From assembly GCF_014284175.1 (NCBI RefSeq), contig NZ_JACOGA010000008.1, forward strand, positions 62,001 to 126,000: a stretch of 64,000 nucleotides of DNA, read 5' to 3'. The position numbers and the translations under genes are program-made. The DNA comes from Affinundibacterium flavidum (GTDB lineage Bacteria > Pseudomonadota > Gammaproteobacteria > Burkholderiales > Burkholderiaceae_D). Numbering within the stretch: the stretch's first letter is position 1; every line of letters starts with the position of its first letter. The notes beneath the pieces are model-generated. The model searched no databases, had not been told where the DNA came from, and saw only the letters and a list, made by a program, of their open reading frames with translations. Positions 6,757 through 37,864 of this stretch are shown here, in pieces.

Positions 6757-7620
6757 ATGCGTATTTTATTGATTTCAGGAATTTCAGGTTCAGGCAAATC
6801 GGTTGCATTAAATGTCGTCGAAGATGCAGGATACTATTGCGTTGATAACTTGCCGCCGAGTTTGCTGATTGACTTGGTAAAAACACTGGAGTCTGAAGGC
6901 ATCAAGAATGCCGCGATGGCGATCGATTCGCGTAGCGCGCACCAATTACAAAGTGTTGCAGACACAGTAGAAAAACTGCGGCAATTGGGGCATGAAGTAA
7001 AGATTTTATTCTTGACCGCCAGCTCAGAAACCTTAATCGCACGTTTTTCCGAAACTCGTCGCAGCCATCCTCTGTCCCATCTTTTGCAAGCGCCAAATCT
7101 ACCCTGTACGCCGCTAAGCCTGACTGAATGCATAGATGCAGAACGTCAGCTGGTCTCACCATTACAGTTTCTTGGGCATGTGATTGACACCTCAAATTTA
7201 AGTGCCAATCATTTACGCAATTGGATTAAAGATGAAATCTGCGTTGAGCACGCCTCTTTGATCTTAATGTTTGAGTCCTTTGCCTTCAAAGTCGGCGTAC
7301 CTCTGGATGTCGATTTTGTATTCGATGTCAGGATACTGCCAAATCCTCACTACGATCATGCACTGCGTCCACTGACCGGGCGTGATCAGGCGGTGGTTGA
7401 TTTCCTTGAAGCACAAGCTATGGCGCAAGATCTCTATCAAGACATACGAAATTTCATCGACAAATGGTTGCCTTCATTTAAGCAAGACAATCGCAGTTAT
7501 TTAACGATAGGTATAGGCTGCACGGGAGGTCAACATCGCTCTGTGTATATGGTAGAAAAACTGGCTCGTCATTTCCAGCAATCAGAGCGGGTATTGATTC
7601 GCCATCGTCAAAATCATTAA
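6757..7620 (+). CDS. rapZ: RNase adapter protein RapZ
   Basis: A nucleotide-binding RNA-binding adaptor; in E. coli it delivers the sRNA GlmZ to RNase E and so controls amino-sugar synthesis. It has 287 residues, the family length. The Walker A motif GISGSGKS is at 8-15, followed by VVEDAGYYCVDNLPPSLL. The conserved C-terminal domain contains FDVRILPNPHY and IGCTGGQHRSVYMVEKLA. It starts 14 bp after hprK and is clearly in the same operon. The role in amino-sugar control is family knowledge; no target sRNA was identified here. Confidence 0.95.
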   Translation: MRILLISGISGSGKSVALNVVEDAGYYCVDNLPPSLLIDLVKTLESEGIKNAAMAIDSRSAHQLQSVADTVEKLRQLGHEVKILFLTASSETLIARFSETRRSHPLSHLLQAPNLPCTPLSLTECIDAERQLVSPLQFLGHVIDTSNLSANHLRNWIKDEICVEHASLILMFESFAFKVGVPLDVDFVFDVRILPNPHYDHALRPLTGRDQAVVDFLEAQAMAQDLYQDIRNFIDKWLPSFKQDNRSYLTIGIGCTGGQHRSVYMVEKLARHFQQSERVLIRHRQNH

Positions 7621-7763
7621 TTCTAAATGATTAGTTTTTAAGAATTAAGCTTGAAAAACAAATTCAGGCTAACTGAGTGTACTGGGTGAGTGTGGCGGGT
7701 GAATCGCCAGTTAAGTCCACCTCTTTCGCCATGGTCAGAGTCGAGCCAATTAAGGCTCTTTCC

Positions 7764-9056
7764 TCAGTGGCGGGATGCCCAATCCGAAAGCATGTCAATC
7801 GCTTTGACTATTTGACCCGCGGTGCCGCGATAATCTCCCGAACCTTGCTTAATACCTTCTCTGGTATACCACTCGTAAAAACCTTCATCTCGCACGACCC
7901 TATCAAGTATGGGGGCGAGCTCTTGATAGGCGAGTTGAACTTCACCTGCGGCGACCATTTGTTGCACTATGCGCGCACCAAACCAAGCCCAGTCACCGCC
8001 ATTTTGATAGACATAAACGCCTCCCATATATTCTCTATTTTTAAAAAAATCAGCAGGGTAAGTCGGATACAAGCTAACCCCGATACTGCCAGATCCTGAC
8101 TCGATCTTATTTTTGATCATACGTGAAAACGCTTGCTTTACCTCAGTCGGCAAGAGTAGGCCGGCTTCGATAGCAACGGCAGTTCCCCCTTGAAAATAGA
8201 TAGCCGATTCATCAAAGCCAGATGGCATCGGTGATCCTTTTTCAAGATATAGATGAGGAATAAATTTAACACCATTCCAAAGATAAGTCCTTATGGCACC
8301 GCGTAAATCACGCTCTCGCCCCGCCCATAAAGAGCTATCACGTGTATTGGCTTTTGCCAGCGTTTGCAAGCCTTGCAATGCTAAGGTAAGCATCGCATTA
8401 TCATAAATACTGATGCTTGGATGACTAGCATCATTTAACGCCGTGCCTGGCGTGTCTTCGGGTTGCACATCACCCCAATCCGCTCTCGTACCACCGAAAA
8501 CTAAACCGTACTTACTTGAATAACGTTGCGTATATAAGAAAGTTAAGGCATTTTCCAACCTGACAATCACCGGGATTCCACGTATCTCTTCGAGTAGAAA
8601 TGCCTTATCTCCACTGATAGTCACATATTTCGTGACCGCCTGCACCAAAGAACTTTCTTGATCGCTTTCTACGGTCGTCTTAATCGTTGAGTCGTCCAAC
8701 ACGGCGATTGCATCAACTATATTGCCATCCTCACTTTGATGAACCAAAAAATTCTTTAATTGAGCGCGTACAGCTGGTGCACCGTGTACTTCGATAGCCA
8801 GTTCGACAAAAGTATTCAGGTCACGAATAAAAACATAGGGATAAACACTGCCCGCAGCAAAGCTTTTTCCTACCAGTTGCTTTGCCTTGGCGCGCACTAA
8901 GGTAAACCGACTATCATTGCGTATCGCTGTTGCCAGCTTAGCATCGGCTGAAACGTCCACCGGAGTTTGACTTGAGCTACCTCCTCCAGAAGAACACGCT
9001 GTTAATAAAATAAGCAAAGCAAATGACAAATAAAATCGTAAGTAAAAATATTGCAT
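7764..9056 (-). CDS. Lipoprotein with probable (alpha/alpha)6 glycosidase fold
   Basis: Last gene of a five-gene minus-strand operon. The ATG at 9056 has a GAGGG ribosome binding site six bases upstream and gives a classical lipoprotein signal: MQYFYLRFYLSFALLILL then the lipobox LTAC, followed by a Ser/Gly linker. A TTG further upstream is rejected. The mature part (about 400 residues) is rich in aromatic and acidic helical repeats: YPYVFIRDLNTF, TRADWGDVQPED, NGGDWAWFGARI and GSGDYRGTAGQ. These resemble six-hairpin glycosidases (amylo-glucosidase, GH37/GH63-like groups), but no family can be fixed by eye. The likely site is the periplasmic face of a membrane. The substrate is unknown; the neighbouring glycosyltransferase-like gene fits a glycan context. 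Confidence 0.65.
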   Translation of the reverse strand: MQYFYLRFYLSFALLILLTACSSGGGSSSQTPVDVSADAKLATAIRNDSRFTLVRAKAKQLVGKSFAAGSVYPYVFIRDLNTFVELAIEVHGAPAVRAQLKNFLVHQSEDGNIVDAIAVLDDSTIKTTVESDQESSLVQAVTKYVTISGDKAFLLEEIRGIPVIVRLENALTFLYTQRYSSKYGLVFGGTRADWGDVQPEDTPGTALNDASHPSISIYDNAMLTLALQGLQTLAKANTRDSSLWAGRERDLRGAIRTYLWNGVKFIPHLYLEKGSPMPSGFDESAIYFQGGTAVAIEAGLLLPTEVKQAFSRMIKNKIESGSGSIGVSLYPTYPADFFKNREYMGGVYVYQNGGDWAWFGARIVQQMVAAGEVQLAYQELAPILDRVVRDEGFYEWYTREGIKQGSGDYRGTAGQIVKAIDMLSDWASRH

Positions 9057-9102
9057 ACCAGCCCTCAAAATTTTCTCTTCTGCCAAAGAGTAAAGGAAAT
9101 AT

Positions 9103-9942
9103 TTACCTGCACAGCTTTAACTGATCCAGCCAGGCCAAAAGGCATTCAGTCTCAGTTAAAAATGAAGTCTGTGCGGCATAACGCCCAGGAGCCGTGTGAT
9201 CGACTTCTATTTTCATCCAATCATTTTTACTCTCAACAAACTGCACGTATTGCTGCCAATCCTGAACCAATTTTTCGTCCCCCCCACGCTCTGAAATGAC
9301 TGGCGTACCGAGGCACAATGAATGCCAGATCCGGTAGACCTCAAGCACACTAGCATCGAATTTTCCAATATTAATCGTCGCTTTGGCAGTCGCTATGCGT
9401 AAATCCCTTTCGTGCCCCCAGCAATTGTGCAAAATACGCAGCGGCATTTTCAGTTCTTCCCGCAAGTATTTGAGGGTAGGAATACGATGCTCATTCACCT
9501 TGCCGTAAAACACATAGTGAAGGTTCTTACTAGGGAATTGAAATGCGCTTAGAGGCAAATAACCAAATTTAAATAAAGAGTTTTGTGTATTGCCGATGCG
9601 TGTCAGTATCTCCACATTATTATGCGAATAATCCAGTACAGGCGTGTCCTTCAAACACTTTATATAGCGCTCTAACCACGGGGCTTTTTCAACGCCGGAT
9701 AAAGGCGCCAAATTCACGATCACACAATTTGATGGCAGCTTTTGTAACGGTCGTTGTTCATCAATGAACTGTCGATACCATGCAAAAACCAGACATGGCA
9801 TATCGTGCCTGATTCTATCCAGCTCAAAATGGACCTGGACTCCGAGTTGACTCAACGCGGTCGACAGCGCACCTATCAACTCAACATAGACGGCGCTATA
9901 GGCACCGTTAGTGGAAATCTCCACCAGACATATTTCACGCAT
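9103..9942 (-). CDS. Glycosyltransferase-like protein (GT-B type)
   Basis: 279 residues, no signal peptide or membrane segment. The C-terminal half reads like the donor-binding domain of GT-B glycosyltransferases: GKFDASVLEVYRIWHSL followed by LGTPVISERGGDEKLV, where an acidic residue and the CLGTPVI segment are typical of group-1-like enzymes. The N-terminal half (ISTNGAYSAVYVELIGAL) would be the acceptor domain, shorter than usual. It starts 27 bp after the P450 stop and lies 46 bp before the lipoprotein gene, so all are probably co-transcribed. The sugar and acceptor are unknown. Confidence 0.6.
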   Translation of the reverse strand: MREICLVEISTNGAYSAVYVELIGALSTALSQLGVQVHFELDRIRHDMPCLVFAWYRQFIDEQRPLQKLPSNCVIVNLAPLSGVEKAPWLERYIKCLKDTPVLDYSHNNVEILTRIGNTQNSLFKFGYLPLSAFQFPSKNLHYVFYGKVNEHRIPTLKYLREELKMPLRILHNCWGHERDLRIATAKATINIGKFDASVLEVYRIWHSLCLGTPVISERGGDEKLVQDWQQYVQFVESKNDWMKIEVDHTAPGRYAAQTSFLTETECLLAWLDQLKLCR

Positions 9943-9969
9943 ACGAAAATTTGATGTAGTAAGCGGTGC

Positions 9970-11175
9970 TCATGCAAAACTCACCGACAGTTTTTCCAAA
10001 CTACGAAGGAAAGAATTCTTGCGCCACGTGAAGCTTGACTCTGCCAGAACTAAACCAGGACAACGTTTCAGTAAAGTCGCAAACGCTATTTTTGCTTCTG
10101 CACGAGAAAGCGTCTTACCCAAACAATGATGGATGCCGATTCCAAAAGCAAGATGAGGATTATGTTGGCGTCGGATATCGAACTCTTCAGCGCGTTCAAA
10201 TACAGCGGGGTCGCGATTTGCCGAGCCAATAAAAACACCGATTTGTTGGCCTGCAGGTATGGTAAAACCAGAGATTTCCGTGTCCTCACTGGTGATACGA
10301 AATGAGGTTCTTTGCTCAGGGCTTTCAAAGCGCAACATCTCTTCAATCGCACTAGGTAGTAGCTCTGGCTGCGCTTGCAGCAAAGCCCATTGCTCTGGAT
10401 GGCTTAACAGCAAACTCGCGCCACTACCTAAGAGATTAATCGTCGTTTCATGTCCTGCGAATAAGATAAACAAAGACATGCCAATTAACTCTTCACTCGA
10501 AATTAATTGCTGCCCTTCTCGTTCCAATAAGTACGACAACATACTATCGTCAGGCTGATCTCGCTTTGTTTGAATTAAATACTGAACGTAGGATATGAAT
10601 TCATTCAAAGCTGTTCTGCGCTCATCCAAATTGGTATGTTTTACCAGTAAGGAATCAAAACTATCGCCCAAAATCAACGACCAGCGACGTACTTTTTGCA
10701 TGTCGTTCTGAGGTACACCAAACATATGGGCAATTACAAAGACGGGCAAAGGATCGCAAAACTCAGTGATGAAATCGAATGACTGTTGATCAGCAAAATT
10801 ATCTATCAAAGCATCAATCAAATAGTCTGTTTGTTGCTGGATGATAGGCTCCAGCTGAGCAATCGCTTTCAGTGAAAAAAATTCAGCAATCATGCGTCGC
10901 AAGCGCAAATGATCTGCGCCATCTCTATGTAAGAGATGTAAGTCAAATGGATGCTGTATCGTACTCGGGCGTACCGTACGTATATGTTTTGAAATGGTAA
11001 GATTGTTCTTAAAAATCGCCAAAGCATCCGCATAGTGCGCAAACAACCACACGCCTTGACTCGTACTATCTTGCTCGTGAGGCAGCCACAGTGGCTCCCC
11101 TGCACGGCGAATTTCTGCGTAATATGGATAAGGATTTTGAAAAAATTCCTCTTCCCGTATATTCACTGTCATCAT
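9970..11175 (-). CDS. Cytochrome P450
   Basis: A soluble bacterial class I P450 of 401 residues. All catalytic motifs are present: the I-helix AGHETT (240-245), the K-helix ExxR (Glu279-Arg282), and the heme loop FGIGIHHCLG with the axial cysteine at 351. The AGHETT acid/threonine pair implies normal oxygen activation. No ferredoxin or reductase gene is adjacent, so electrons must come from elsewhere. Position within the CphA-like operon suggests tailoring oxidation of a small molecule or acyl/peptidyl intermediate; this is inference. Two adjacent ATG codons (11175, 11172) could start it. It begins 39 bp after the upstream putative hotdog gene. Confidence 0.92.
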   Translation of the reverse strand: MMTVNIREEEFFQNPYPYYAEIRRAGEPLWLPHEQDSTSQGVWLFAHYADALAIFKNNLTISKHIRTVRPSTIQHPFDLHLLHRDGADHLRLRRMIAEFFSLKAIAQLEPIIQQQTDYLIDALIDNFADQQSFDFITEFCDPLPVFVIAHMFGVPQNDMQKVRRWSLILGDSFDSLLVKHTNLDERRTALNEFISYVQYLIQTKRDQPDDSMLSYLLEREGQQLISSEELIGMSLFILFAGHETTINLLGSGASLLLSHPEQWALLQAQPELLPSAIEEMLRFESPEQRTSFRITSEDTEISGFTIPAGQQIGVFIGSANRDPAVFERAEEFDIRRQHNPHLAFGIGIHHCLGKTLSRAEAKIAFATLLKRCPGLVLAESSFTWRKNSFLRSLEKLSVSFA

Positions 11176-11214
11176 TATTTCAATCGATAAAATCGTAGAC
11201 TAAACATCTCAGAT

Positions 11215-11667
11215 CTAAACTAAAAACCCTTTTAGGCGCACTTCAAACAAGCCATCCAGTGCATCGGTAATCGTAAAATCGGCGATGCAATAACAACTTT
11301 CATTCCGACGGCGCATGGTGTTGACTTTCATGTCAACACGAATTCCTTGCGTACTACGAATCGCGCGTATGGTTTTTGTATGGCTTTCGACCATCCAGGC
11401 TTCTTTGGTTTTTTTATTCTGACCGGACCAGACGTGTCCATAAATAATCATTAACTGGGATAAAAATTCTAAGGTCGAAAAAATACTCAAATGAAATCCG
11501 CCTACATCTGTTTCAGAAGTATAGATAGATCGCATGCCGACGACTGCTTGTAAGCGATCATCTTCAATTTCTATCTCGCTTAATTGCCATTGTTCTTGTT
11601 GACGCCCCTCATTCAGATAGTGCGAAGACATTTGCTCAACCGCGGCCTCATCTAGTCGATATTTCAT
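11215..11667 (-). CDS. Small protein, possibly hotdog-fold (dehydratase/thioesterase-like)
   Basis: 150 residues, cytoplasmic. The pattern of a central hydrophobic helix (GGFHLSIFSTLEFLSQLMIIYG, about residues 56-77) followed by long amphipathic strands ending in FTITDALDGLFEVRLKGFL resembles the hotdog fold of FabZ-like dehydratases and acyl thioesterases. No family-specific active-site motif was recognised, so the fold call is tentative. It is the second gene of the operon, 121 bp after the ATP-grasp gene and 39 bp before the P450. If correct, it hints at an acyl intermediate in the pathway. Confidence 0.45.
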   Translation of the reverse strand: MKYRLDEAAVEQMSSHYLNEGRQQEQWQLSEIEIEDDRLQAVVGMRSIYTSETDVGGFHLSIFSTLEFLSQLMIIYGHVWSGQNKKTKEAWMVESHTKTIRAIRSTQGIRVDMKVNTMRRRNESCYCIADFTITDALDGLFEVRLKGFLV

Positions 11668-11788
11668 GTTTAAATCAATTTCCTTTTTTACTTATGTGCT
11701 GTCAATGTTGCTACGACGATCAAGCCTCACGATGCATTTTGATTCTTTGCCACCGGTCGTCACAAAATATTCCTAACTTCAACACCTG

Positions 11789-13753
11789 CTATCCTATGCT
11801 ACGTTGAAATTGCCTTTGTAGCTCTTGGCTCAAGTGCGATACGAGTCCGCCCTCAAAATAGTCTTTGATTGTATCGTCTGGCAGCTTTATCGCGCCAGTA
11901 AGTTGTTGTAGATGGCTAGGAATACTGAGCTTTTCTACCCGCATTTTCATCAAAAATTGCGCACAGAACATCCATTCCTTCAAATCAGCATTGTTTTTGT
12001 GTTGCCGGTCTTTATACAAAACAAGGTTTGCTATTCTATCGACTGCTAATCCAGAATTTAGAAATTGGCCTCCCGAAAAATTCAACACTACCGCCGCCAC
12101 ATCAGGATCAGATAGCAATGCCAGGCTGCCTATATACGGATCGATTGGTGTTGCCATGATAGATACACCGGCAATCCGACACGCATGTGCATCTAAAGTG
12201 CCAATTTTCAAAGTTTGTTCAGGGAATAATTTGTTCAAGTGCTCTTGCAAATCCTGGGACCAATTCACATCGTCAATCTCGCCCAACACAACAATAATCG
12301 GGATCAAGCCTTTTTGATGGACTAATTTTCCCAGTATTTCAAGTGGTAGATGCGGCGACATCTGCGGCTGTGCATTGACCTCACAAATAGCGGCGCCAGT
12401 TTCCAACCAAGATTGTCGAATGTCGGGGATCAACAAATCAATACCCGCCAAATCAAGACGCAACATGCGTGCCGCACGTTCAGCCAAGCGCAAATTATCA
12501 GGATGCGCGATGTCCAATACCGGCACGATACTTCCACCCGACGCGACGTTGGCAGCCTGACGTAATCGTACATATTGGCCCACTGCAGGGATGGAATTCA
12601 ATTCCAACCCTTGCTCGTCCAAGAGCGACTCCGCTTCTTGATTGATATAAATCCGCTTTAGCAAGGCATTGCTGCCGGGCTCACCACGCGCTGGTTGCGC
12701 ATTTTGGATGTCGAGTAATTCTTGAACCGAATGTTGACCGTCGCCAGTCACGCCTCCAGGTATTCTATGAACCGCCCAATAAACCTGTCCTTGATAAACC
12801 TGAATCCGGTAGTCACGACCAATGAACTGCTGCTCAAGTAAGATCGTATTCGATAATTTACTAGCTTCTGCAAAAGCGTAACGCACTTCCGCTACATTTT
12901 TTAAGCCGACATGAACGCCGCGCCCGCCATCTTGATCTGAAGGTTTGATGACAACCGGGAATTGCATTTTCGCCGCATGTTCAGCCGCTTCATCCGCATT
13001 CTTGACTATGAATTGTTGGCAGACAGGGATGCCGACATTTCGCAAAAACCGCGAAGTGGCCACCTTGTTGCGCGCAATACGGGTTGAAATATTCGGCGTC
13101 TCATCGGTGAATGAACTATCTAACCAACGTGCGTACCGCCCCCAACCAAATTGAAAGACGTTAGCATTGATCCTCACATACGGGATATCTAATTGTTGAG
13201 CAGCTTGAATAAAGCGTAAAGAATTTTGCCCTGTAGGCGCATATACGGCCATTTGCTGAATGAGCTTGCGTAAGCTGTCCTCTAAAGCCGCTTGCCGTAC
13301 ATCTTCTTCATATTTTTCTGGGTTGAAATGATTGTGCAAAAAATTCATGCGCGTCATTAACCAATTGAGCGCCAAGTGATTCGCCGAGTAGCTCATGCTC
13401 AGCGCCGGCATAATCAAGGATTTTATCGAGCTCGATGGACTTGTACGCTCGTCAATCACCATTTCATCAATTACCGGAAAACCAGCCATGACCAACACAC
13501 CCATACAAGCTGAGAATAATTGGCGTAAGGGATAGTCGTGAAGGACGGATAACTTGTCGAATTTTTCCTGATAGGCAGGAATTAAGCGTAAGAACTCGGC
13601 GTGAGCAACATTCAGGATTTGCTGGTCGAATGCCTTGGTATTGAGTTCAACACTAACGACAATCGCTGCTTGCCGCATTTTTGGGAAATATCCGGGCACA
13701 TTTCTGTATCCTACAATTTTAAGAATATCTTTCGTCAGGCCAGGAGCTGTCAT
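11789..13753 (-). CDS. Cyanophycin-synthetase-like ATP-grasp ligase with degenerate Mur-ligase half
   Basis: First gene of the five-gene operon; ATG at 13753, about 654 residues (a GTG two codons upstream is possible; residue numbers below are counted from that GTG). Residues 1-165 resemble the CphA N-terminal domain. Residues 225-475 are a clear CphA-type ATP-grasp: RIARNKVATSRFLRNVGIPV, then VVIKPSDQDGGRGV (269-282), GRDYR (314-318), and Glu460 in ICEVNAQP. Residues 486-585 align with the start and middle of the CphA Mur-ligase domain (IPIIVVLG, then DPDVAAVVLNFSGGQFLNSG), but the P-loop GTNGKTTT is replaced by GEIDDVNW and the protein stops about 220 residues short of normal CphA. This matches the CphA2 layout, in which only the ATP-grasp site works. 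The expected reaction is ATP-dependent amide bond formation between amino acids or dipeptides; the substrate is unknown. Confidence 0.8.
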   Translation of the reverse strand: MTAPGLTKDILKIVGYRNVPGYFPKMRQAAIVVSVELNTKAFDQQILNVAHAEFLRLIPAYQEKFDKLSVLHDYPLRQLFSACMGVLVMAGFPVIDEMVIDERTSPSSSIKSLIMPALSMSYSANHLALNWLMTRMNFLHNHFNPEKYEEDVRQAALEDSLRKLIQQMAVYAPTGQNSLRFIQAAQQLDIPYVRINANVFQFGWGRYARWLDSSFTDETPNISTRIARNKVATSRFLRNVGIPVCQQFIVKNADEAAEHAAKMQFPVVIKPSDQDGGRGVHVGLKNVAEVRYAFAEASKLSNTILLEQQFIGRDYRIQVYQGQVYWAVHRIPGGVTGDGQHSVQELLDIQNAQPARGEPGSNALLKRIYINQEAESLLDEQGLELNSIPAVGQYVRLRQAANVASGGSIVPVLDIAHPDNLRLAERAARMLRLDLAGIDLLIPDIRQSWLETGAAICEVNAQPQMSPHLPLEILGKLVHQKGLIPIIVVLGEIDDVNWSQDLQEHLNKLFPEQTLKIGTLDAHACRIAGVSIMATPIDPYIGSLALLSDPDVAAVVLNFSGGQFLNSGLAVDRIANLVLYKDRQHKNNADLKEWMFCAQFLMKMRVEKLSIPSHLQQLTGAIKLPDDTIKDYFEGGLVSHLSQELQRQFQRSIG

Positions 13754-14123
13754 TGCCACACTTTCAAAATCACGTGATTACCTCTTCAAAACTACAGAAG
13801 CAGTGCTCCATTACCCTATGAATGAAGCACTTGCTAAGCACATTCTATACGGACAATACGCGATTGAGAAAAATTGCAATTATTATCTGCTCATTCAGAT
13901 GCAGAAACACTACATGCTGGAATACTGTGATAAGAAATGATAGAAAAAGTCATCTAGACTGTATCTGGGTGACGCTAGTCTGCACAGATCTAACCGAATC
14001 ATAAGCTGTGTAGCTTGTTATCAGTCTTTTGACTTAAATGCGCCCCCACTTCCTGATCAAAACGAGCGTTTTTCAGGCAAAAATTGAGTGCGGGGGATGT
14101 TTGACAAATCTTGCGGATTCAGG

Positions 14124-14157
14124 CTGACAACGACGGGTTGAATCGAGTCGTTGTCAG
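14124..14157. repeat. Perfect 11-bp inverted repeat downstream of the ABC permease
   Basis: CTGACAACGAC (14124-14134) and its exact complement GTCGTTGTCAG (14147-14157) with a 12-bp loop. It lies about 60 bp after the permease stop on the minus strand. No T-run follows on either strand, so it is either a factor-independent-terminator-like remnant, an mRNA-stabilising hairpin or a protein-binding dyad. Confidence 0.75.
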
Positions 14158-14188
14158 TTGAAATTGCAGTTCACTTCGGTATTTAACT

Positions 14189-14212
14189 CAATATGCACTT
14201 CAATATGCACTC
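14189..14212. repeat. 12-bp tandem duplication next to the permease stop codon
   Basis: CAATATGCACTT (14189-14200) and CAATATGCACTC (14201-14212), 11 of 12 identical, ending six bases from the stop codon of the ABC permease. Confidence 0.85.
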
Positions 14213-14218
14213 GAAAGT

Positions 14219-15382
14219 TTACTCCATCACCACATCCCGCATTTTGCGTGATACGAATAACAAACTACCACTCACGATTACGCAAGAAACCAACAACGCG
14301 ATACCAATCGAATTCGCACCCACTAATTCACCTTTGAGCACTTGATTCATCATCTGCGTCTGCGCCATCACTGGTACCCATCCTAACCAAGCTGGTTCTT
14401 TGCCCGGATTTAAAATAAAAAACAACGGCAAGAACGAGACTGTCAAACTCAATAGCTGATTTCTGACATTTGCTTCCTTAAAAGTCTTGCAGGTTAATGA
14501 CAAAGCGACCTGCAAAGAAGACAGTGCAGCTGCTAATGGCACAAGCACCAATAAAAAAGCTAAAGCATCTTTCACACCGAACTGAAATTCAGCTCGTAAG
14601 GCTTCATTGGCAATCACCGATTGTGCGGGAAAGAAACTACTGACGGTCAACACCACGATCAAGATACTCACCGTTGCCACTGCCGCCGTTTTGCCGATAG
14701 CCAATTGCAAGCCTGATACCGGATTCATCATCAAAGGTTCAAGTGAGCCACGCTCACGTTCGCCCGCTGTACTATCAATCGCTGCAAACATTCCGCCCAT
14801 CACGATGGCCATAATCAAGACCATAGGCAACATGCCGGTAATTGTCACGCGTCGCTCATCTGGCCGGCTGATGTGACGCTCTTTAACCACGACCGCCTGC
14901 AGCAATTCTGCGGACACACCACGCATCATCAAATTCAAACCACTACGTTCTTGCACATAACCATTCAACAAGCGTCGTAAAGGATTAAGGCCCATTTCTG
15001 CTTGACGGTTTGAAGTATCATAGGCGATCTCCAACTCGACACGCTTGAGTTGAGCGACATCGTCTTCAAAATGTGCTGGAATCAATAAGACGGGTTTGAT
15101 TAATTCTTTACTGCGAGATTTTTCTTCATAGTCCACAGGCGCTTGCTTGATTTGATAGCCTTGGCGCAGAATGTAATTTTCCAGGCCTGGCGCATCTTTC
15201 ATGTTCACCGCCATCACGCTACGATCAACTGCCTGCGACTCAACCTGCGACATCACGGTCGAAAACACAAACAACAACATAGGCACGAGTAATAATGAAC
15301 TCGCCAAGACCATCATCAAAGTGCGGCGATCACGCATCGCATCTGAGATTTCTTTCCAATAAATTGCGAATATTTCTCTCAT
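14219..15382 (-). CDS. ABC-2 type (NatB-like) permease
   Basis: The membrane subunit of an ABC transporter, 387 residues. An N-terminal membrane segment (about 21-45) is followed by a roughly 130-residue extracytoplasmic region and then five or so membrane helices (from about 178 to 380). The cytoplasmic motif STAGERERGSLEPLMMNPVS (about 205-224) is diagnostic of the NatB/ABC-2 group. Its start codon overlaps the end of the ATPase gene by 4 bp, showing translational coupling. Family members export sodium, drugs or other compounds; the substrate here is unknown. Confidence 0.85.
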   Translation of the reverse strand: MREIFAIYWKEISDAMRDRRTLMMVLASSLLLVPMLLFVFSTVMSQVESQAVDRSVMAVNMKDAPGLENYILRQGYQIKQAPVDYEEKSRSKELIKPVLLIPAHFEDDVAQLKRVELEIAYDTSNRQAEMGLNPLRRLLNGYVQERSGLNLMMRGVSAELLQAVVVKERHISRPDERRVTITGMLPMVLIMAIVMGGMFAAIDSTAGERERGSLEPLMMNPVSGLQLAIGKTAAVATVSILIVVLTVSSFFPAQSVIANEALRAEFQFGVKDALAFLLVLVPLAAALSSLQVALSLTCKTFKEANVRNQLLSLTVSFLPLFFILNPGKEPAWLGWVPVMAQTQMMNQVLKGELVGANSIGIALLVSCVIVSGSLLFVSRKMRDVVME

Positions 15383-16212
15383 GCGAGACTCCCTTGATTC
15401 AAAGTTGACTGGCCATTAGAAGTAGAGGATGCAGGGGCTTGGTCCAGAAATGCCAGCTTCACAAAAGCATCTTCAAAATCGTGCTCCTGCGCCTGCTGCA
15501 TTAATTCAGTGACAGTACCTTTGGCAACGGTCTTACCCTGCGCAACAATCACAACGGTATCGCACAGACGCTCCACTTCTTGCATGATATGGGTAGAAAA
15601 TACGATGCACTTACCGCCACCTTCTGCGCTTCTGAGCCAGCGTAAAAACTCACGTAGCGCGCGTGTCGCAACCACATCTAAGCCATTGGTCGGTTCATCC
15701 AAAATAATATTCTTAGGATCGTGAATCAAGGCACGTGCTAAGGCAATTTTCATGCGCTCCCCCTGACTGAATCCTTCCGTGCGGCGATCAAGTAAATTGT
15801 GAATTTCTAACCAATGTGCCAATTGATCGGTACGTTGCTCGATCGCGCCTTTATCCATGCCGTGTAACTTACCGTAATATTGAATATTTTCACGGGCGGT
15901 TAAGCGTGGATACAAACCGCGTGCATCAGATAAAATACCTAATCTAGCCTGTGCTGCGGTCTGCCCTTCTTTCACTTGCACATCATCAATCTTGATCATG
16001 CCGCTATCCATTTTCAACATGGAAGCAACCATACGCAAACTGGTCGTTTTACCCGCGCCATTGGCTCCTAGCAAACCCAAAATCGCACCGTCTTGCGCGG
16101 TGAAACTGACCCCGTTCACGGCCTTCACTTTTTCGCTACTACGCTTGCCGATACCAAATTTCGGCTTACCTAATTTGACGAATTCTTTATGCAGATCTTC
16201 AACAATAATCAT
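15379..16212 (-). CDS. ABC transporter ATP-binding protein (NatA-like)
   Basis: The ATPase partner of the downstream permease, 277 residues from the ATG at 16212, which has an AGGAG ribosome binding site seven bases upstream. Longer in-frame starts inside the upstream gene are rejected. Walker A GANGAGKTT, signature FSQGERMKIALARAL and Walker B IILDEPTNGLD are all intact. The D-loop and H-loop (FSTHIM) are also present. The start lies one base after the stop of the upstream hydrolase gene, so the three genes form a tightly coupled operon. Confidence 0.9.
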   Translation of the reverse strand: MIIVEDLHKEFVKLGKPKFGIGKRSSEKVKAVNGVSFTAQDGAILGLLGANGAGKTTSLRMVASMLKMDSGMIKIDDVQVKEGQTAAQARLGILSDARGLYPRLTARENIQYYGKLHGMDKGAIEQRTDQLAHWLEIHNLLDRRTEGFSQGERMKIALARALIHDPKNIILDEPTNGLDVVATRALREFLRWLRSAEGGGKCIVFSTHIMQEVERLCDTVVIVAQGKTVAKGTVTELMQQAQEHDFEDAFVKLAFLDQAPASSTSNGQSTLNQGSLA

Positions 16213-16213
16213 T

Positions 16214-17695
16214 TTATTCTCCTGCTTTCTTGACTTCGCTAACAGCGGCATTATCCGTACCAAGTACAGGAGGAAGCCAGACCAAAGGGCGTGGGATTTG
16301 ACGAACGCAACTTGCATCAACTTTTAATGCCTCGTCATCGGTTTTCGCGGCAAGGAATTTATCTACCACTTCACGTACGCAGCCTTGCATCAACAAGCCA
16401 TGGCCAGCATTCTCGATGCTGATATGACGCGCCTTGCTCCCCAAGGCTTTGGCGATTTGCTCACCATTGCGGGTCGGTGTCACAGGATCAATGCCACCAC
16501 TTAACAAGAGCACGGGCGACTTGGTATTTGGTGTCGTGAAAAACTCTTTAGGAATTTGTGCTCGTGGCCAGCTTGCACAAATTTTGTCATACATATTACC
16601 CATTACTTCGGTGAACTCGTCGCCTTTACCTGCTGCAGCGCGCGGATTGGCATACGCCTCGCCGCACCAGACTGAGTAATGCATACCCATTACCAGGCCA
16701 CCAGGACCAGCTTGATTAAAGCTACCACTCATAGTCAGCAAAGGATCGAGCTTACCTTTTTCTGCCTGCGTGATTGCATAAGGCAATACTGCCGTAGTGG
16801 TCGGTGAATAAAGACCTTTAAACACCATACCGATCAAATCATCACGACCAATTTGCGCACTCATACTATTTCCAAGACGTGGATGCGTAAAGCTAAACTG
16901 ACGTGGTGTGCTCGCTAGCAAGCGCTTCCAGCTTCCCGCCAAATCTGGATACGCTGTATTACAGCGTGCATTTTTTAGGCAATCAGCAAAAATCCCTTCT
17001 AAGGCCGGTTTTGCATCCGAAGCGAGTAAGCTCAAATCGGGTGGCACCACGCCATCAATCACAAGGCGGCGCACAGACTGTGGAAATTGACGTAAGAATT
17101 CCAAACCAACCCGTGTACCATACGAAGCGCCCACCAAGTTAATCGGACCATAATTTTGCGCCAGTCGAACTGCTTCTAAATCCTGTACGGCGATACTGGT
17201 ACTAAAAAATTGCAAATCACCATAAGGTAGTTTTTGCAAATTTTGCTGACAGCTCTGGATTATTTTAAGTGTCGCTTCTTTATCGAGAATCTTATTACTC
17301 TCTTCTAATTCGGGACAACGCAAAGGTGCGCTCTTACCAGTGCCGCGCTGATCAACAAACACCAGATCCCGACGTCGATTGAGTTTACCTAACACAGTTT
17401 CACCAAAGCTCGCAGCCGCGACTGCGCTTTGCCCTGGGCCGCCCGCCAGCAAAAACACGGCATCGGGTAATTTATTCCTGTCTTGCGAAGGCAAAACTAC
17501 GTAATGCACGGCTATCTTCTTGCCATCGGGGTTGGCGGGATCAAGCGGTCGCTGAACTTGTCCGCACTTCACCTCCTGCGGAAAACTATCGATACGACAA
17601 GGCTTGGTCTGTGCCTGTGCCCACAGCGGAAGGCTCAATATTGTCACCCCAAACAAACGGGCTAAGGCGGTTTTGGTAGTCATAGAATCAATCAA
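16214..17695 (-). CDS. Secreted alpha/beta hydrolase (TAP-like C-terminal, tripeptidyl-aminopeptidase type)
   Basis: 493 residues with a signal peptide (ALARLFGVTILSLPLWAQAQ). Alpha/beta-hydrolase features: the oxyanion loop AGGPGQSA, the DQRGTGKS turn, the nucleophile elbow GASYGTR, and the C-terminal TAP-like region SGGIDPVTPTRNGEQ and NAGHGLLMQGC carrying the catalytic Asp and His. The family cleaves N-terminal peptides or related amides and proline substrates. A TTG at 17695 is the preferred start because AGGAG lies six bases before it; the ATG four codons in has no close ribosome binding site. First gene of the hydrolase/ABC operon, which suggests a joint role in export or resistance; this is inference. 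Confidence 0.85.
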   Translation of the reverse strand: MIDSMTTKTALARLFGVTILSLPLWAQAQTKPCRIDSFPQEVKCGQVQRPLDPANPDGKKIAVHYVVLPSQDRNKLPDAVFLLAGGPGQSAVAAASFGETVLGKLNRRRDLVFVDQRGTGKSAPLRCPELEESNKILDKEATLKIIQSCQQNLQKLPYGDLQFFSTSIAVQDLEAVRLAQNYGPINLVGASYGTRVGLEFLRQFPQSVRRLVIDGVVPPDLSLLASDAKPALEGIFADCLKNARCNTAYPDLAGSWKRLLASTPRQFSFTHPRLGNSMSAQIGRDDLIGMVFKGLYSPTTTAVLPYAITQAEKGKLDPLLTMSGSFNQAGPGGLVMGMHYSVWCGEAYANPRAAAGKGDEFTEVMGNMYDKICASWPRAQIPKEFFTTPNTKSPVLLLSGGIDPVTPTRNGEQIAKALGSKARHISIENAGHGLLMQGCVREVVDKFLAAKTDDEALKVDASCVRQIPRPLVWLPPVLGTDNAAVSEVKKAGE

Positions 17696-20389: not shown

Positions 20390-22315
20390 TTAGCTGGTAC
20401 TAGTATCTGCAGCCAGCGCCTTATGTATATTATTACGTAAGCTTTCTAAAGATTTTTTCTGCGCTTCGACTTCCTTCATCATTGCTTCAAAGCTGGCGAT
20501 TTTCTCTTCCAAACTATCAGTCGCTACATGAATTCTTTGAATTGACTGCATACGATTTTTTAACTGATTCTTATGTTCACGTATCTGCGCTTCAATCGGC
20601 GCCATAACGACTTTTTGCCAAGCTTCAACATCGCGATTCGCCTGTGAAAAACTTTGTTTAACGCGTGCCGAAATTGAATCAAAAAACTTTTGTATCAAGA
20701 CTTTTTTCTCTGTCGTCAACAAAGTAATCGCACTAAATTGACGATGAAAAACTGACTCGATTGCCTCAATCTCTTGCATGTATTTATTCAAGGAAAATGG
20801 CATAGGCGCCGTCAATGCCAAACCATGTTCGGTTGAAAATTTACGGTACATGATCGCCATCATTTCGGATATTTCGTCGGTCTTACGATTGGATGCTTGC
20901 AGGTTTTGTTTGACCTGCGTGAAGAAATTTTTAATCGCCTCTTTCAAGCCCAAAGAAAATTTACTCGACTCCATTTCTTCACGGGCAGTCTTAATTTCTT
21001 CTTTCAAAATATCCATACCCAAGGTGGTGTACACCTCGGTCGACAAACGCGTAAAGACTGAACGGGTGCCCTGCATTTTCATCAAACTGGCATCAAATTC
21101 TTGCTTCTCAAGCGTGACGCGTTTCATCATGTGTTCAATCACATTTTGATTCTTACCACGCAGGCTTTGTAATTCGTGCAGTTGCTCATTGACACCACGA
21201 CCACGTGCATTAATCACCGCATATTGACCATCGGTGATTTCTTGAATATCACTCGCTAATTGCGCGCGGATGATGTTCTTTTTGGAAGGAATCAATTCGT
21301 TCGATAAGGCATATTCCAATTTCGGCAAACGGCTCTTGGCCAGCAAAGGCGCGTCTTTATTGATTTTTGCAACCAAGCCTTTTTGCGCAGAAATCGGGAA
21401 AACTTGTTTTTCTTCCAGGCTCAAGGTGTGCGCGACGGAAGTGATTTGATTTTGAATTTGCGTTTCGATTTCTTCCGGCGTACGCAACTCATCCCACATA
21501 CTATCGATTTTATTTAACACCACCATACGACCCGGGCCGCTGCCGATATGATCGCGCCAGACTTCGACATCGCTCTTCGTCACACCCGTATCGGCCGCCA
21601 GAATAAATAAAACCGCGTGCGCATTTGGGATCAGATTTAAGGTCAATTCAGGCTCAGTACCAATCGCGTTTAAACCCGGCGTATCGACAATGATTAAGCC
21701 TTGCTTTAATAGGGGATGAGGAAAATTGACGATTGCATGACGCCATTGCGAAATTTCGACCAAACCATTTTCATCGACTTCCAAAGCTGCATCCGGATCT
21801 GATTCGTCATACAAGCCATAGGACTTGGCGACTTCTTTACTCACCTTCTTGGTCAAACTCACTTGCTTAAAAGCTTCGAGCATACCGTCACCAGACTTGG
21901 TGTCTAACGGCAACACCGTCCAAATATGTTGATTGCCTTTATATTCAGTCGTACTAAGAGTTTCGCTGCGAGTTTCTATCGGTAACAAGCGTATACAAGG
22001 CGGCATGCCCTCGTCATACAAAAGTTCGGTCGGACACATGGTGGTGCGACCAGCGGCGGATGGCAGAATTCTTTGCCCATAATCCGCAAAGAAAATCGCA
22101 TTAATTAATTCCGACTTGCCGCGCGAAAATTCGGCGACAAAGGCAATAGTCAACTTATCGTCTATCAGCCGCTCTTTCAGACGCATAATGCGTTGATCAA
22201 GAATACCGTCAGCGAAATCAGAACCAGCAATCCAGGCGCGATATTGCTCTATCGCCTGGGCGACGCCTTTGCGCCAGCCGCTGTATTCTTCAAAATTCTG
22301 AACCAAATTACTCAT
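20390..22315 (-). CDS. Dynamin-like GTPase
   Basis: 641 residues. The GTPase motifs are G1 AEFSRGKS (61-68), a G2 threonine region around GRTTMCPTE (89-97), G3 DTPG (211-214) and G4 NKID (268-271). The C-terminal half is a long helical and coiled-coil region (about 350-640) with a basic amphipathic stretch, as in bacterial dynamin-like proteins. Family members bind and remodel membranes; some act in membrane stress or phage response. It is a single copy here, not the usual head-to-tail pair. No transmembrane helix is evident. The gene is isolated, with a miniature element directly upstream. Confidence 0.85.
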   Translation of the reverse strand: MSNLVQNFEEYSGWRKGVAQAIEQYRAWIAGSDFADGILDQRIMRLKERLIDDKLTIAFVAEFSRGKSELINAIFFADYGQRILPSAAGRTTMCPTELLYDEGMPPCIRLLPIETRSETLSTTEYKGNQHIWTVLPLDTKSGDGMLEAFKQVSLTKKVSKEVAKSYGLYDESDPDAALEVDENGLVEISQWRHAIVNFPHPLLKQGLIIVDTPGLNAIGTEPELTLNLIPNAHAVLFILAADTGVTKSDVEVWRDHIGSGPGRMVVLNKIDSMWDELRTPEEIETQIQNQITSVAHTLSLEEKQVFPISAQKGLVAKINKDAPLLAKSRLPKLEYALSNELIPSKKNIIRAQLASDIQEITDGQYAVINARGRGVNEQLHELQSLRGKNQNVIEHMMKRVTLEKQEFDASLMKMQGTRSVFTRLSTEVYTTLGMDILKEEIKTAREEMESSKFSLGLKEAIKNFFTQVKQNLQASNRKTDEISEMMAIMYRKFSTEHGLALTAPMPFSLNKYMQEIEAIESVFHRQFSAITLLTTEKKVLIQKFFDSISARVKQSFSQANRDVEAWQKVVMAPIEAQIREHKNQLKNRMQSIQRIHVATDSLEEKIASFEAMMKEVEAQKKSLESLRNNIHKALAADTSTS

Positions 22316-27140: not shown

Positions 27141-27217
27141 AGGGGAATCGCCAAGCTGGTTAAGGCACCGGATTTTGATTCCGGCATGCGAAGGTTCGAA
27201 TCCTTCTTCCCCTGCCA
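27141..27217 (+). tRNA. tRNA-Gln (anticodon UUG)
   Basis: A 77-nt cloverleaf with the CCA end encoded. The acceptor stem is AGGGGAA with TTCCCCT. The anticodon arm is CCGGA-TTTTGAT-TCCGG, giving anticodon TTG. The T arm is GAAGG-TTCGAAT-CCTTC. It lies between ispE and prs, as in many Burkholderiales, and is followed by a strong terminator. Confidence 0.96.
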
Positions 27218-34613: not shown

Positions 34614-34795
34614 TTACCAAACTCAACAACGCTGCAGTAAGCTATGCCACACAATCATGGAGACATTGTGTGCGAAGCGCTGTGAACGCAAAATAAACCT
34701 CAAACGCACCACAAATCTCATTCCTGGTTAATAAAGCGCTTGGCGTGAGCAGCTCAAAACTCTACACTGCGATCTTTATCCGTCGGAATCGCAAG

Positions 34796-36451
34796 GTGAA
34801 AATTTCTATCGGTTGGCGTCTATTTTTTGCCGTGCTGCTATCGCTGATCACGATAGTCGCCGCCGCACTATTTTTGATGCGTGAAAAAGTCAGTAATAGT
34901 TTTGCCGACTATGCGCTTAAGATTGAACTGGATAGATTACAAGAAGTTGGCGACGCCATACAAGAACAGTACGCGCAACATGGGGATTGGTCTTTCTTAC
35001 CGAAAGATACACAGAAAAAACAAAGTTGGATCAATCAAGAGTTACTTCGACTATATCAAATCAAGACAAATCCACAGCTCTCCAGTCAAGAGCACCCGAT
35101 TGAAAAAATTGCACGAGTGGTCATCGCTGCACCCGTTGCCCCGGCCGCACCCGCCACGCCTTCCGCACCGGCAAGCCCCGCAAAAGCTGCAGCGGTAACT
35201 GAATCAAGCGTCGCCAAGAAATCGATATTACCGCCACTGCCGCCTCCACCTCCGCTACCACCACCGCCGCCCTTGGAACTACCGGCAGCGCCATCCAGTA
35301 TCGATCTCCCTCCCGAGCCTGATCTTGCTGGTGAGACTGAAGTTGAACCAGAATTTCAGAGCTTGAATAGCCGTATCAGCTTAATCAATACTGCCCAACA
35401 ATATTTAGCAGGACGAGTACCGGATCAAAGTCCAAGTGGCCAGCGCCCACTAATTCACCAAGGCAAAATCATTGGGTATTTGAAGGTACAAAAATCGCGT
35501 GTACCGAGTGATGCAATGTCAAAAGATTTTCTACAGGAGCAAGCCGATACCATCGCGATTATTATCGTCATCAGTATCAGCCTAAGTGCATTGGCATCAT
35601 TACTGTTAGCCTTGCATTTCCGCCGACCTATTCATCGTTTGGTCGACGGCGCACGTGCTTTAGCGGACGGCCATTTTGATACGCGTTTAAATACACAACG
35701 CAGTGATGAACTAGGCGAGCTGGCGCAAAGTTTTAATCAACTGGCAGAAAAACTCGCGCAAGCGGAACAGAGCCGACGTCAATGGGTAGCGGATACGTCA
35801 CATGAATTACGTACACCGATTTCTGTCTTACGCGCGCAATTGGAAGCACTGCAAGACGGCATACGCAGTGCCACCCCTGAAAACATCGCCTTGATGTTGC
35901 GTCAGGTTCTATCGCTGAACAAATTAATTGATGAACTATATGCACTTTCCAAAGCCGACGTTGGCGCTTTGGAATACCAAATGCAAACAATCGCACTAGC
36001 AACTTTAATTCAGGAAGAAGCAGATAATTTTCATGAAAAAATTCTCGCCGCCAATCTGCAGTTGCAACTCGATCTGATATCTCACATTCATGCAAGCGAC
36101 ATCCATGGCGACAGTGAGCGCCTGCGTCAGGTTTTGCATAATTTATTTGAAAACTCATTACGCTATACCGATGCTGGCGGACACATTCGCATCAGCCTAT
36201 ACCAGCAAGGACAACAATTAGCATTATTGTGGGAAGATAGCTCGCCAGCAGTGCCTGCCGATGCATTACAGAGATTGGGTGAACGCTTCTTTCGCGTCGA
36301 CAATTCACGCAATCGCGCTTTCGGCGGCTCGGGTTTGGGACTCGCTTTATGTCGCCGTATTTTGGAAGCACATCAAGCCAGTATCAGTTTTGCGCCATCC
36401 ACATTGGGCGGCTTAGCAATCACCATCGTTTTCAATCGCACTGCAAATTGA
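34796..36451 (+). CDS. BaeS-like sensor histidine kinase with a polyproline periplasmic insert
   Basis: An inner-membrane sensor kinase of about 551 residues from the GTG at 34796, which has GGAA upstream and gives MKISIGWRLFFAVLL; an in-frame GTG at 34745 adds 17 residues. Order (numbered from 34745): TM1 at 25-45, a large periplasmic region at 46-268, TM2 at 269-290, HAMP at about 291-345, HisKA with His353 in DTSHELRTP, and HATPase with HNLFENSLRYTD and GGSGLGLAL. The periplasmic part is longer than in BaeS and contains an Ala/Pro tract (130-147) and a near-continuous polyproline tract (162-177, LPPLPPPPPLPPPPPL), then an acidic stretch. It is followed by its response regulator and by a small exported polyproline protein. 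Confidence 0.88.
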   Translation: MKISIGWRLFFAVLLSLITIVAAALFLMREKVSNSFADYALKIELDRLQEVGDAIQEQYAQHGDWSFLPKDTQKKQSWINQELLRLYQIKTNPQLSSQEHPIEKIARVVIAAPVAPAAPATPSAPASPAKAAAVTESSVAKKSILPPLPPPPPLPPPPPLELPAAPSSIDLPPEPDLAGETEVEPEFQSLNSRISLINTAQQYLAGRVPDQSPSGQRPLIHQGKIIGYLKVQKSRVPSDAMSKDFLQEQADTIAIIIVISISLSALASLLLALHFRRPIHRLVDGARALADGHFDTRLNTQRSDELGELAQSFNQLAEKLAQAEQSRRQWVADTSHELRTPISVLRAQLEALQDGIRSATPENIALMLRQVLSLNKLIDELYALSKADVGALEYQMQTIALATLIQEEADNFHEKILAANLQLQLDLISHIHASDIHGDSERLRQVLHNLFENSLRYTDAGGHIRISLYQQGQQLALLWEDSSPAVPADALQRLGERFFRVDNSRNRAFGGSGLGLALCRRILEAHQASISFAPSTLGGLAITIVFNRTAN

Positions 36452-37396: not shown

Positions 37397-37864
37397 ATGA
37401 AACCTATCGCCTTAACTGTTTTGCTGGCAACTCTTGGCGCAACAGGATTGAGCTTAGCGCAATCGAATATTGACATAGACTTGAACGGCATCCACAGTAA
37501 AGTCGTCAGTGTTAAATGCACACAAAACTCGACAAAGAAATCCTGTGCAAAATTATTACCGCCCCCAATTCCACCTGCGCCGCCTGCGCCACCCGCACTA
37601 CCATCACCTATGGCACCGCTTCCACCGCCACCTCCACCGCTACCAGATCTGCCTTCTATTGCAGATTTGCCTGAGCCACCTGAGCCGCCAGAACCACCAG
37701 AAATTGTCATCCCTGATGAAGTTCATCAAGCTTGCAAAAACAAAAGTGTCGGGGCTAGCGCGAGCTGGCAGCCGAATAAGTCAACCTACTATGGCGGCAC
37801 CTGTGTAAAACGTGATGGCAAGATGATTTTGGATGTCCATCAAATTTCTCTACACAAATCTTAA
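37397..37864 (+). CDS. Small exported proline-rich protein with four cysteines
   Basis: 155 residues. A signal peptide (MKPIALTVLLATLGATGLSL then AQ) precedes a short N-terminal domain (23-52) with Cys41 and Cys50. A proline-rich middle (54-102) contains LPPPPPPLPDLP and the repeat PEPPEPPEPPE, and the C-terminal domain has Cys113 and Cys136 and a basic end. The even number of cysteines suits disulfides in the periplasm. AGGAG precedes the ATG. No family was recognised. It lies 126 bp after a two-component pair whose sensor has a similar polyproline periplasmic tract, so it may be a ligand or a target of that system; this is inference. Confidence 0.75.
   Translation: MKPIALTVLLATLGATGLSLAQSNIDIDLNGIHSKVVSVKCTQNSTKKSCAKLLPPPIPPAPPAPPALPSPMAPLPPPPPPLPDLPSIADLPEPPEPPEPPEIVIPDEVHQACKNKSVGASASWQPNKSTYYGGTCVKRDGKMILDVHQISLHKS

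Follow-up and report, generated by a model that had tools for sequence, protein, structure and literature searches.

A cyanophycin synthetase-derived ligase, a hotdog-like protein and a cytochrome P450 form a rare three-gene core in an accessory block of Affinundibacterium flavidum

Cyanophycin synthetase (CphA1) and its relative CphA2 are the closest described counterparts of a ligase encoded in a 64,000-nucleotide stretch of DNA from Affinundibacterium flavidum (contig NZ_JACOGA010000008.1, positions 62,001 to 126,000; hereafter the window). The ligase gene is the first of a block of five minus-strand genes, and together with the next two, for a hotdog-like protein and a cytochrome P450 (P450), it is the main subject of this paper. 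In passages of PMC9262961, His267 of SuCphA1 is located in the G domain and the H267A substitution inactivates the enzyme. CphA2 is described in parts of PMC10206079 as a cyanobacterial enzyme with a single active site, acting on beta-Asp-Arg. CphA is discussed in PMC11915815 with regard to how ATP-grasp and Mur ligases evolved; those passages do not mention a cluster of the present type. Stand-alone ATP-grasp amide synthesis outside nonribosomal peptide synthetases (NRPSs) is represented by N-acetylglutaminylglutamine synthetase and small ATP-grasp ligases. A different kind of counterpart, relevant to the last two genes of the block, is the oleandomycin system of Streptomyces antibioticus, in which, according to a portion of PMC8657839, the glycosyltransferases OleI and OleD inactivate the antibiotic and an extracellular enzyme restores it. 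Within the words searched, no open-access paper combining cyanophycin synthetase with a cytochrome P450 cluster was found, and in one paper the "cyanophycin synthetase-like" cluster wording occurs only in a reference title. The statement in the preliminary description of this DNA that the block matches no nameable pathway was thus borne out for the combinations searched. The five genes are given below in their order on the minus strand.

11789-13759, minus strand: CphA-derived ATP-grasp ligase, 656 amino acids from GTG at 13759 (alternative ATG at 13753)
11215-11667, minus strand: hotdog-like protein, 150 amino acids
9970-11175, minus strand: cytochrome P450, 401 amino acids
9103-9942, minus strand: short GT-B-like putative glycosyltransferase (GT), 279 amino acids
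7764-9056 from ATG, minus strand: exported (alpha/alpha)6 glycosidase-like lipoprotein, 430 amino acids (the open reading frame list begins at TTG 9086; ATG 9056 is the best start)

The three-gene core of ligase, hotdog-like protein and P450 is the real finding, and its recurrence suggests a real, undescribed pathway. A search for the ligase in 369 genomes of the class, the source included, with at most three candidates scored per genome, returned a single full-length relative besides the ligase itself. This relative, 42% identical over residues 6-640 (460 bits), is encoded by G923, a genome from the same class as the source and from a different order. The next match was in G717 (318 bits, residues 19-581), followed by matches of at most 237 bits, mostly to CphA-sized frames. 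Directly beside the G923 ligase lies a match to the hotdog-like protein (E 2.9e-50), and this in turn is adjoined by a match to the P450. G923 therefore holds the three genes adjacent to one another, on one strand and in the order of the window, with global identities to the window proteins of 41% (ligase), 53% (hotdog-like protein) and 52% (P450). Among 60 genomes that included the source and 35 genus mates, CphA-family matches outside the source genome reached at most 187 bits, compared with 1476 bits for the ligase itself; hence, no ligase orthologue was seen among those 60 genomes.

The neighbourhood of the core in G923 looks biosynthetic. A TauD-type oxygenase gene begins 9 bp beyond the P450 gene, followed by a gene for a PaaK-like protein (its AMP-binding match falls slightly short of the Pfam cut-off and is clearer in NCBIfam) and one for a family-2 glycosyltransferase, for which tblastn gave no relationship to the GT of the window. 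The other side of the core has a chorismate-binding enzyme and two frames without a Pfam match that are PaaK-like by eye. These two frames are adjacent (L190, 10631-12013) and may represent one broken or frame-shifted gene. GC content is approximately 0.60 in the G923 stretch and approximately 0.45 in Undibacterium. Because a rare core is common to G923 and Undibacterium across orders, we infer that it was acquired by lateral transfer, as this distribution suggests. The preliminary description took the five genes to be one compact operon, to be doubted if no other genome carried them as a set, and on this point the five-gene claim failed in the genomes searched: the five were not found together in any other genome, and G923 has the first three only. 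Co-occurrence in the same order thus survives in a three-gene version, in one other genome. Likewise, the interpretation of the block as a small pathway is retained insofar as the P450, the ATP-grasp ligase and a protein that may handle acyl groups recur together in G923, and was not supported for the five-gene set.

The ligase consists of an ATP-grasp region (approximately residues 160-480), which is conserved with CphA, and a degenerate, P-loop-less remnant of a Mur domain (approximately residues 485-600). These two regions align with solved CphA1 structures (7lg5, 7lgm, 7lgn and 7wac) over approximately 430-470 positions, but the solved chains exceed the window ligase in length by more than 200 residues. 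The NCBIfam models for cyanophycin synthetase, with cut-offs of 850 and 877 bits, gave it scores of 274 and 300, and its score against TIGR03103, the N-acetylglutaminylglutamine synthetase model, was far below the cut-off as well (146.7 versus 569 bits). The Mur P-loop GTNGKT, present in 26 of 27 ordinary CphA-family rows, is replaced by GEIDDVNW; it is missing from all seven proteins of two outlying clades, of which two are encoded by the source genome (the window ligase and one other) and one each by G923, G717, G354, G940 and G347. The position of SuCphA1 His267 is occupied by glycine in the window (Gly278) and in G923. Across the seven short P-loop-less proteins, it is Gly in four and Arg in three, compared with His in eight and Gln in 19 of the ordinary rows. 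The HxxEH motif, found in the N domain of primer-independent enzymes, is not present in the window ligase, although this is a weak test, as only 8/27 ordinary rows have the motif and 19/27 do not. Given such variation among ordinary rows, the His267 and HxxEH tests are weaker than they appear. With that caution as to the 19 glutamines, cyanophycin synthesis was judged unlikely on the motif tests, and by its sequence the window ligase does not appear to be a cyanophycin synthetase.

A tree of the family is consistent with this separation. It was built from 34 of 38 extracted rows, with four fragments of window or G923 copies omitted. The window and G923 proteins were paired (support 100/98) and joined next by that of G717 (99/92); these three were placed apart from the 27 ordinary rows (100/100) and from the other four P-loop-less proteins (100/99), with long branches making the deep placements unsure. 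Several P-loop-less CphA-like genes have enzymes as neighbours: the gene in G354 lies next to one for a 2OG-Fe(II) (2-oxoglutarate-dependent) oxygenase, that in G940 next to one for an ornithine cyclodeaminase-family protein and that in G717 next to one for a methyltransferase (L192, L193 and L191, respectively). Such neighbours may reflect a wider recruitment of this type of ligase.

The source genome contains other members of the family. The second P-loop-less CphA-like protein (contig C30; L051, 6429-8186) has 585 amino acids and Gly at the G-domain position. On contig C9 (L052), there are two ordinary, neighbouring CphA-family genes. One encodes an 856-residue protein with the P-loop kept and Gln at the place of His267; the other encodes a 726-residue protein with His and HxxEH and no P-loop, which is the exception among the ordinary rows. 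These two proteins may share the work. A scan of genome contigs with the window ligase alone yielded 21 pattern matches and no relatives. Plasmid searches with the window and G923 ligases returned 103 and 19 records, none covering 80% of the query, and the rows listed were nearly all annotated as cyanophycin synthetase.

The P450 is, as judged from its motifs, intact: AGHET is found at 240, ExxR (EMLR) at 279, and the haem-cysteine motif FGIGIHHCLG with C351. The protein matches PF00067 at 116.9 bits, against a cut-off of 22.8. Its best solved relatives are a biotin-biosynthesis P450-like enzyme (3ejb, 237 bits) and PikC (236 bits), which are practically tied; the former is presumably BioI, acting on substrates attached to acyl carrier protein. 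Two further P450 genes are present in the source genome. Structure prediction, which the preliminary description had proposed for the second and fifth proteins of the block, bore out a glycosidase fold for the fifth, as described below, and gave little for the second. The single-sequence AlphaFold2 model of the hotdog-like protein is poor, with a predicted local distance difference test score (pLDDT) of 39.8, and its listed Foldseek matches, whose names in nearly every case denote hotdog thioesterases or dehydratases, have E values of at least 0.029. The window and G923 proteins have an H59-E67-Q71 pattern in common, which we take to be of the type found in FabZ- and AfsA-type enzymes. Neither protein had a match in the plasmid search, and nothing useful came from a viral-contig scan with the pair or from a solved-structure search with their profile.

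The hotdog-like, GT-like and glycosidase-like proteins of the window have no significant match in Pfam or NCBIfam. For the GT, relatives at 22-35% identity were found in 20 other genomes upon searching 300 genomes of the order. Eight of these were scanned: PF13524 was detected in four, three of them above the cut-off, whereas one of the other four matched methyltransferase families only and three had no match. The window GT itself has no direct PF13524 match. Its plasmid search gave four weak records only, and its viral-contig scan and solved-structure search gave nothing useful.

The glycosidase-like lipoprotein carries a lipobox, LTAC, at residues 18-21 counted from the ATG. Its sequence pattern was found in at least 594 stretches of the genome collection, at least 565 of which code for a relative, and a set of 79 loci (L098-L176) was retained. 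A model was built from an alignment of 46 sequences in all, including 45 of the 78 stop-free loci, and has a pLDDT of 89.5. Its best structural match has a Z score of 33.7 and a root-mean-square deviation (rmsd) of 3.1 over 372 residues. Compared with structures of the glycoside hydrolase (GH) families GH94, GH100, GH63 and GH116, the Z scores are approximately 31-34, with rmsd values of 2.6-3.6 over 327-374 residues; we assume that the entries assigned to GH100 belong to that family. The model thus provides good support for an (alpha/alpha)6 glycosidase-like fold, like that of GH94 phosphorylases, GH100 invertases, GH63 and GH116, but the lipoprotein is only 13-17% identical to these proteins and has no Pfam family. 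A search of solved structures by sequence gave nothing useful. The 46 sequences have 68 invariant positions, including D193-W-G-D196 and E395-W396. By analogy with what we take to be the GH94 and GH100 motifs, residues of the D193/D196/E395 type may serve as acid and base. The family is widespread and has no Pfam match. Among the matches listed, the three closest relatives are from Burkholderiales, namely Undibacterium terreum (73%), Noviherbaspirillum (67%) and Ramlibacter (64%). Within the genus, the gene occurs in 2 of 39 genomes, those of the source and U. terreum.

The surroundings of the five genes identify the block as an accessory one. The features concerned are as follows.

7621-14218, no strand: accessory block between rapZ and natB, containing the five genes
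6757-7620, plus strand: rapZ, flanking gene (named by eye)
14219-16320, minus strand: NatB/NatA-type ABC transporter gene pair, the other flank (named by eye)

These flanks, the common strand and the gaps of 121, 39, 27 and 46 bp from the ligase gene to the glycosidase gene agree, in the open reading frame list, with the preliminary description, as does the accessory nature of the block with the following comparison. rapZ is present in 37 of 39 Undibacterium genomes, the source included. Thirty rapZ loci were obtained, one of which is that of the window. A gap of 33-260 bp, with no block in it, separates natB from rapZ in 15 of the 29 others; in the remainder, natB is at least 0.9 kb away or outside the stretch compared. 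The three genomes with the rapZ closest to that of the window (89%) are G008 and G030, in which the gap is 114 bp, and G032, in which it is approximately 2 kb and contains a gene that is serine-hydrolase-like by eye. In 5 of 13 genomes with longer stretches, 0.9-3.9 kb of other DNA separates rapZ from natB (L085, L087, L089, L091 and L096). The gap is therefore a site that is variable within Undibacterium and short in many species, and the window has approximately 6.5 kb of extra DNA there, i.e., an inserted accessory block. Given those 15 loci, in which natB sits next to rapZ with no block in between, NatAB is considered an old neighbour that lies outside the cassette, and the transporter was rejected as a dedicated exporter of the product. 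Ends of a mobile element were also considered: long terminal repeats were not seen, and the only tRNA gene of the window is at 27141. The base composition of the five genes is unremarkable (GC 0.42-0.47).

Elsewhere in the window, three features were noted by eye. A gene for a dynamin-like GTPase of 641 amino acids (20390-22315) lies near mutM and is 94% identical in G030. A sensor kinase gene (34745-36451), whose product has a proline-/alanine-rich stretch in the sensor part, is next to a response regulator gene, and these are followed at 37397 by a gene for a small exported proline-rich protein.

How might the five genes work together? Our preferred explanation, put forward tentatively and with rather less than full conviction, is that the block is a compact cassette for a specialised metabolite, acquired by lateral transfer and free of NRPS and polyketide synthase (PKS) genes, in which the GT and the glycosidase perhaps mask and unmask the product. 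None of the five was identified as an NRPS or PKS gene by Pfam or NCBIfam, in agreement with the preliminary description. From what is directly seen, namely the gene order, the recurrence of the core, the loss of CphA1 motifs, the lipobox and the fold model, we infer chemical roles of the following kind. By family, the CphA-derived ligase would form an amide between a carboxylate and an amino acid or amine. An acyl thioester would be handled or released by the hotdog-like protein, and the P450 would oxidise the product or its acyl part. The product would then be glycosylated by the GT-B-like enzyme, presumably in the cytosol, and freed of its sugar outside the membrane by the exported lipoprotein glycosidase. 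The cell would thus hold a masked form and release an active one, or else use the glycoside. The close spacing of the GT and glycosidase genes behind the P450 gene (27 and 46 bp) and the conserved ATP-grasp region of the ligase are in favour of this explanation. Masking and unmasking are modelled on oleandomycin, as far as that system is described in the portion cited above: the likeness is a sugar transferase plus an exported enzyme, seen here from gene content, fold and lipobox, and the host differs. A broader proposal, which we regard as unlikely as a whole, is that P-loop-less CphA-like proteins are stand-alone amide ligases derived from cyanophycin synthetase that serve NRPS-free pathways for small molecules with tailoring enzymes of their own (the P450 and the hotdog-like protein in the window and G923, the methyltransferase in G717), the product here being a glycoside unmasked by a lipoprotein of an unnamed (alpha/alpha)6 family, as a Gram-negative counterpart of oleandomycin.

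A number of observations weigh against the cassette explanation. The core was found in only one genome besides the source, and neither the GT nor the glycosidase is present beside it there. The hotdog gene was found in none of 397 other genomes of a phylum sample (without G923) and in one of six genomes of the G923 order, which was G923 itself. The search of 300 order genomes gave the source and one weak hotdog match (G200, E 6.4e-5), whose neighbours within 3.4 kb (L200) are GNAT- and TetR-like by eye. A search of 166 genomes around G923 for additional copies of the core returned only G923, G717 and G751. The model of the hotdog-like protein lends weak support to its identity, and the assignment of the GT, drawn from weak relatives, is a tentative one. 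Among open reading frames of at least 80 amino acids in the block, no carrier protein, ferredoxin or dedicated exporter was seen. Promoter-like and terminator-like signals in the block are not more frequent than in shuffled sequences, which does not favour a single transcript. Furthermore, the neighbours of the C30 ligase, GNAT and transglutaminase-like genes, have no clear biosynthetic theme, and the neighbour of the G347 ligase has no Pfam match. The other four genes were not found beside the three closest glycosidases (in stretches of 17.2, 9.4 and 17.2 kb for U. terreum, Noviherbaspirillum and Ramlibacter, respectively). Since the glycosidase occurs elsewhere without the core, and since it and the GT are not beside the core in G923, its link with the core may be accidental.

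This last point leads to the main alternative, that the core alone is the pathway, whereas the GT and the glycosidase are separate accessories in the same variable site, acting on surface or environmental glycans. We consider it a possible but somewhat doubtful explanation. The occurrence of the glycosidase without the other four genes in the three Burkholderiales stretches implies a history of its own, with joining to the core in this genome, and the core of G923 is complete without GT and glycosidase. In other species, the gap between rapZ and natB contains other DNA. Of the 79 glycosidase loci among the matches listed, whose stretches vary in length, 47 contain a frame resembling GH92 or GH38, which suggests glycan use. 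However, the three closest glycosidases among those matches have none of the tested mannosidase-type neighbours. The GT and glycosidase genes also share the strand of the P450 gene at tight spacing, and terminator-like signals in the block show no excess over shuffles.

Less probable is a catabolic role, in which an imported aromatic or acyl glycoside would be cleaved outside the cell by the glycosidase and its aglycone processed by the P450 and the ligase. The lipobox and the glycosidase-like fold fit this scheme, and P450s often initiate catabolism. However, glycosyltransferases and ATP-grasp amide ligases are usually anabolic, and no importer or coenzyme A-pathway gene was seen in the block in the open reading frame list. 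A function in the envelope or in storage is more improbable still. Here the ligase would be a repolymerase of the CphA2 type, acting on a cyanophycin-like dipeptide, or the block would decorate a surface polymer. The likeness to CphA2 is one of layout: the ATP-grasp half is kept and the Mur active site is lost, such that one live ATP site is expected. His267 is not universal in ordinary family members, and two of these are encoded on contig C9. However, the position is neither His nor Gln in the window and G923, and we know of no place for a P450 or a hotdog protein, both of which accompany the ligase, in cyanophycin turnover. The profile of the window and G923 ligases also scores higher on CphA1 entries than on 8fxh, which we take to be a CphA2. 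Moreover, the window is not cyanobacterial, as the CphA2 described in the parts of PMC10206079 cited above is. An anti-phage defence function was rejected, as PADLOC gave zero matches for all five proteins.

What does the cassette explanation add to the known repertoire of ATP-grasp enzymes? NRPS-free synthesis by ATP-grasp enzymes is itself known; what would be new is the use, in such synthesis, of a ligase that is derived from CphA and has lost the P-loop of its Mur half. Cluster-finding programs mainly seek signatures of NRPSs, PKSs, ribosomally synthesized and post-translationally modified peptides, and terpenes, and a ligase resembling cyanophycin synthetase is easily mistaken for storage metabolism and hence passed over. 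From the 34 rows compared, one simple sequence rule can be given: a CphA-like protein without GTNGKT, with a residue other than His or Gln at the G-domain position, and with an adjacent tailoring enzyme. If the P-loop-less relatives are indeed small-molecule amide synthases, overlooked pathways would be findable by this rule.

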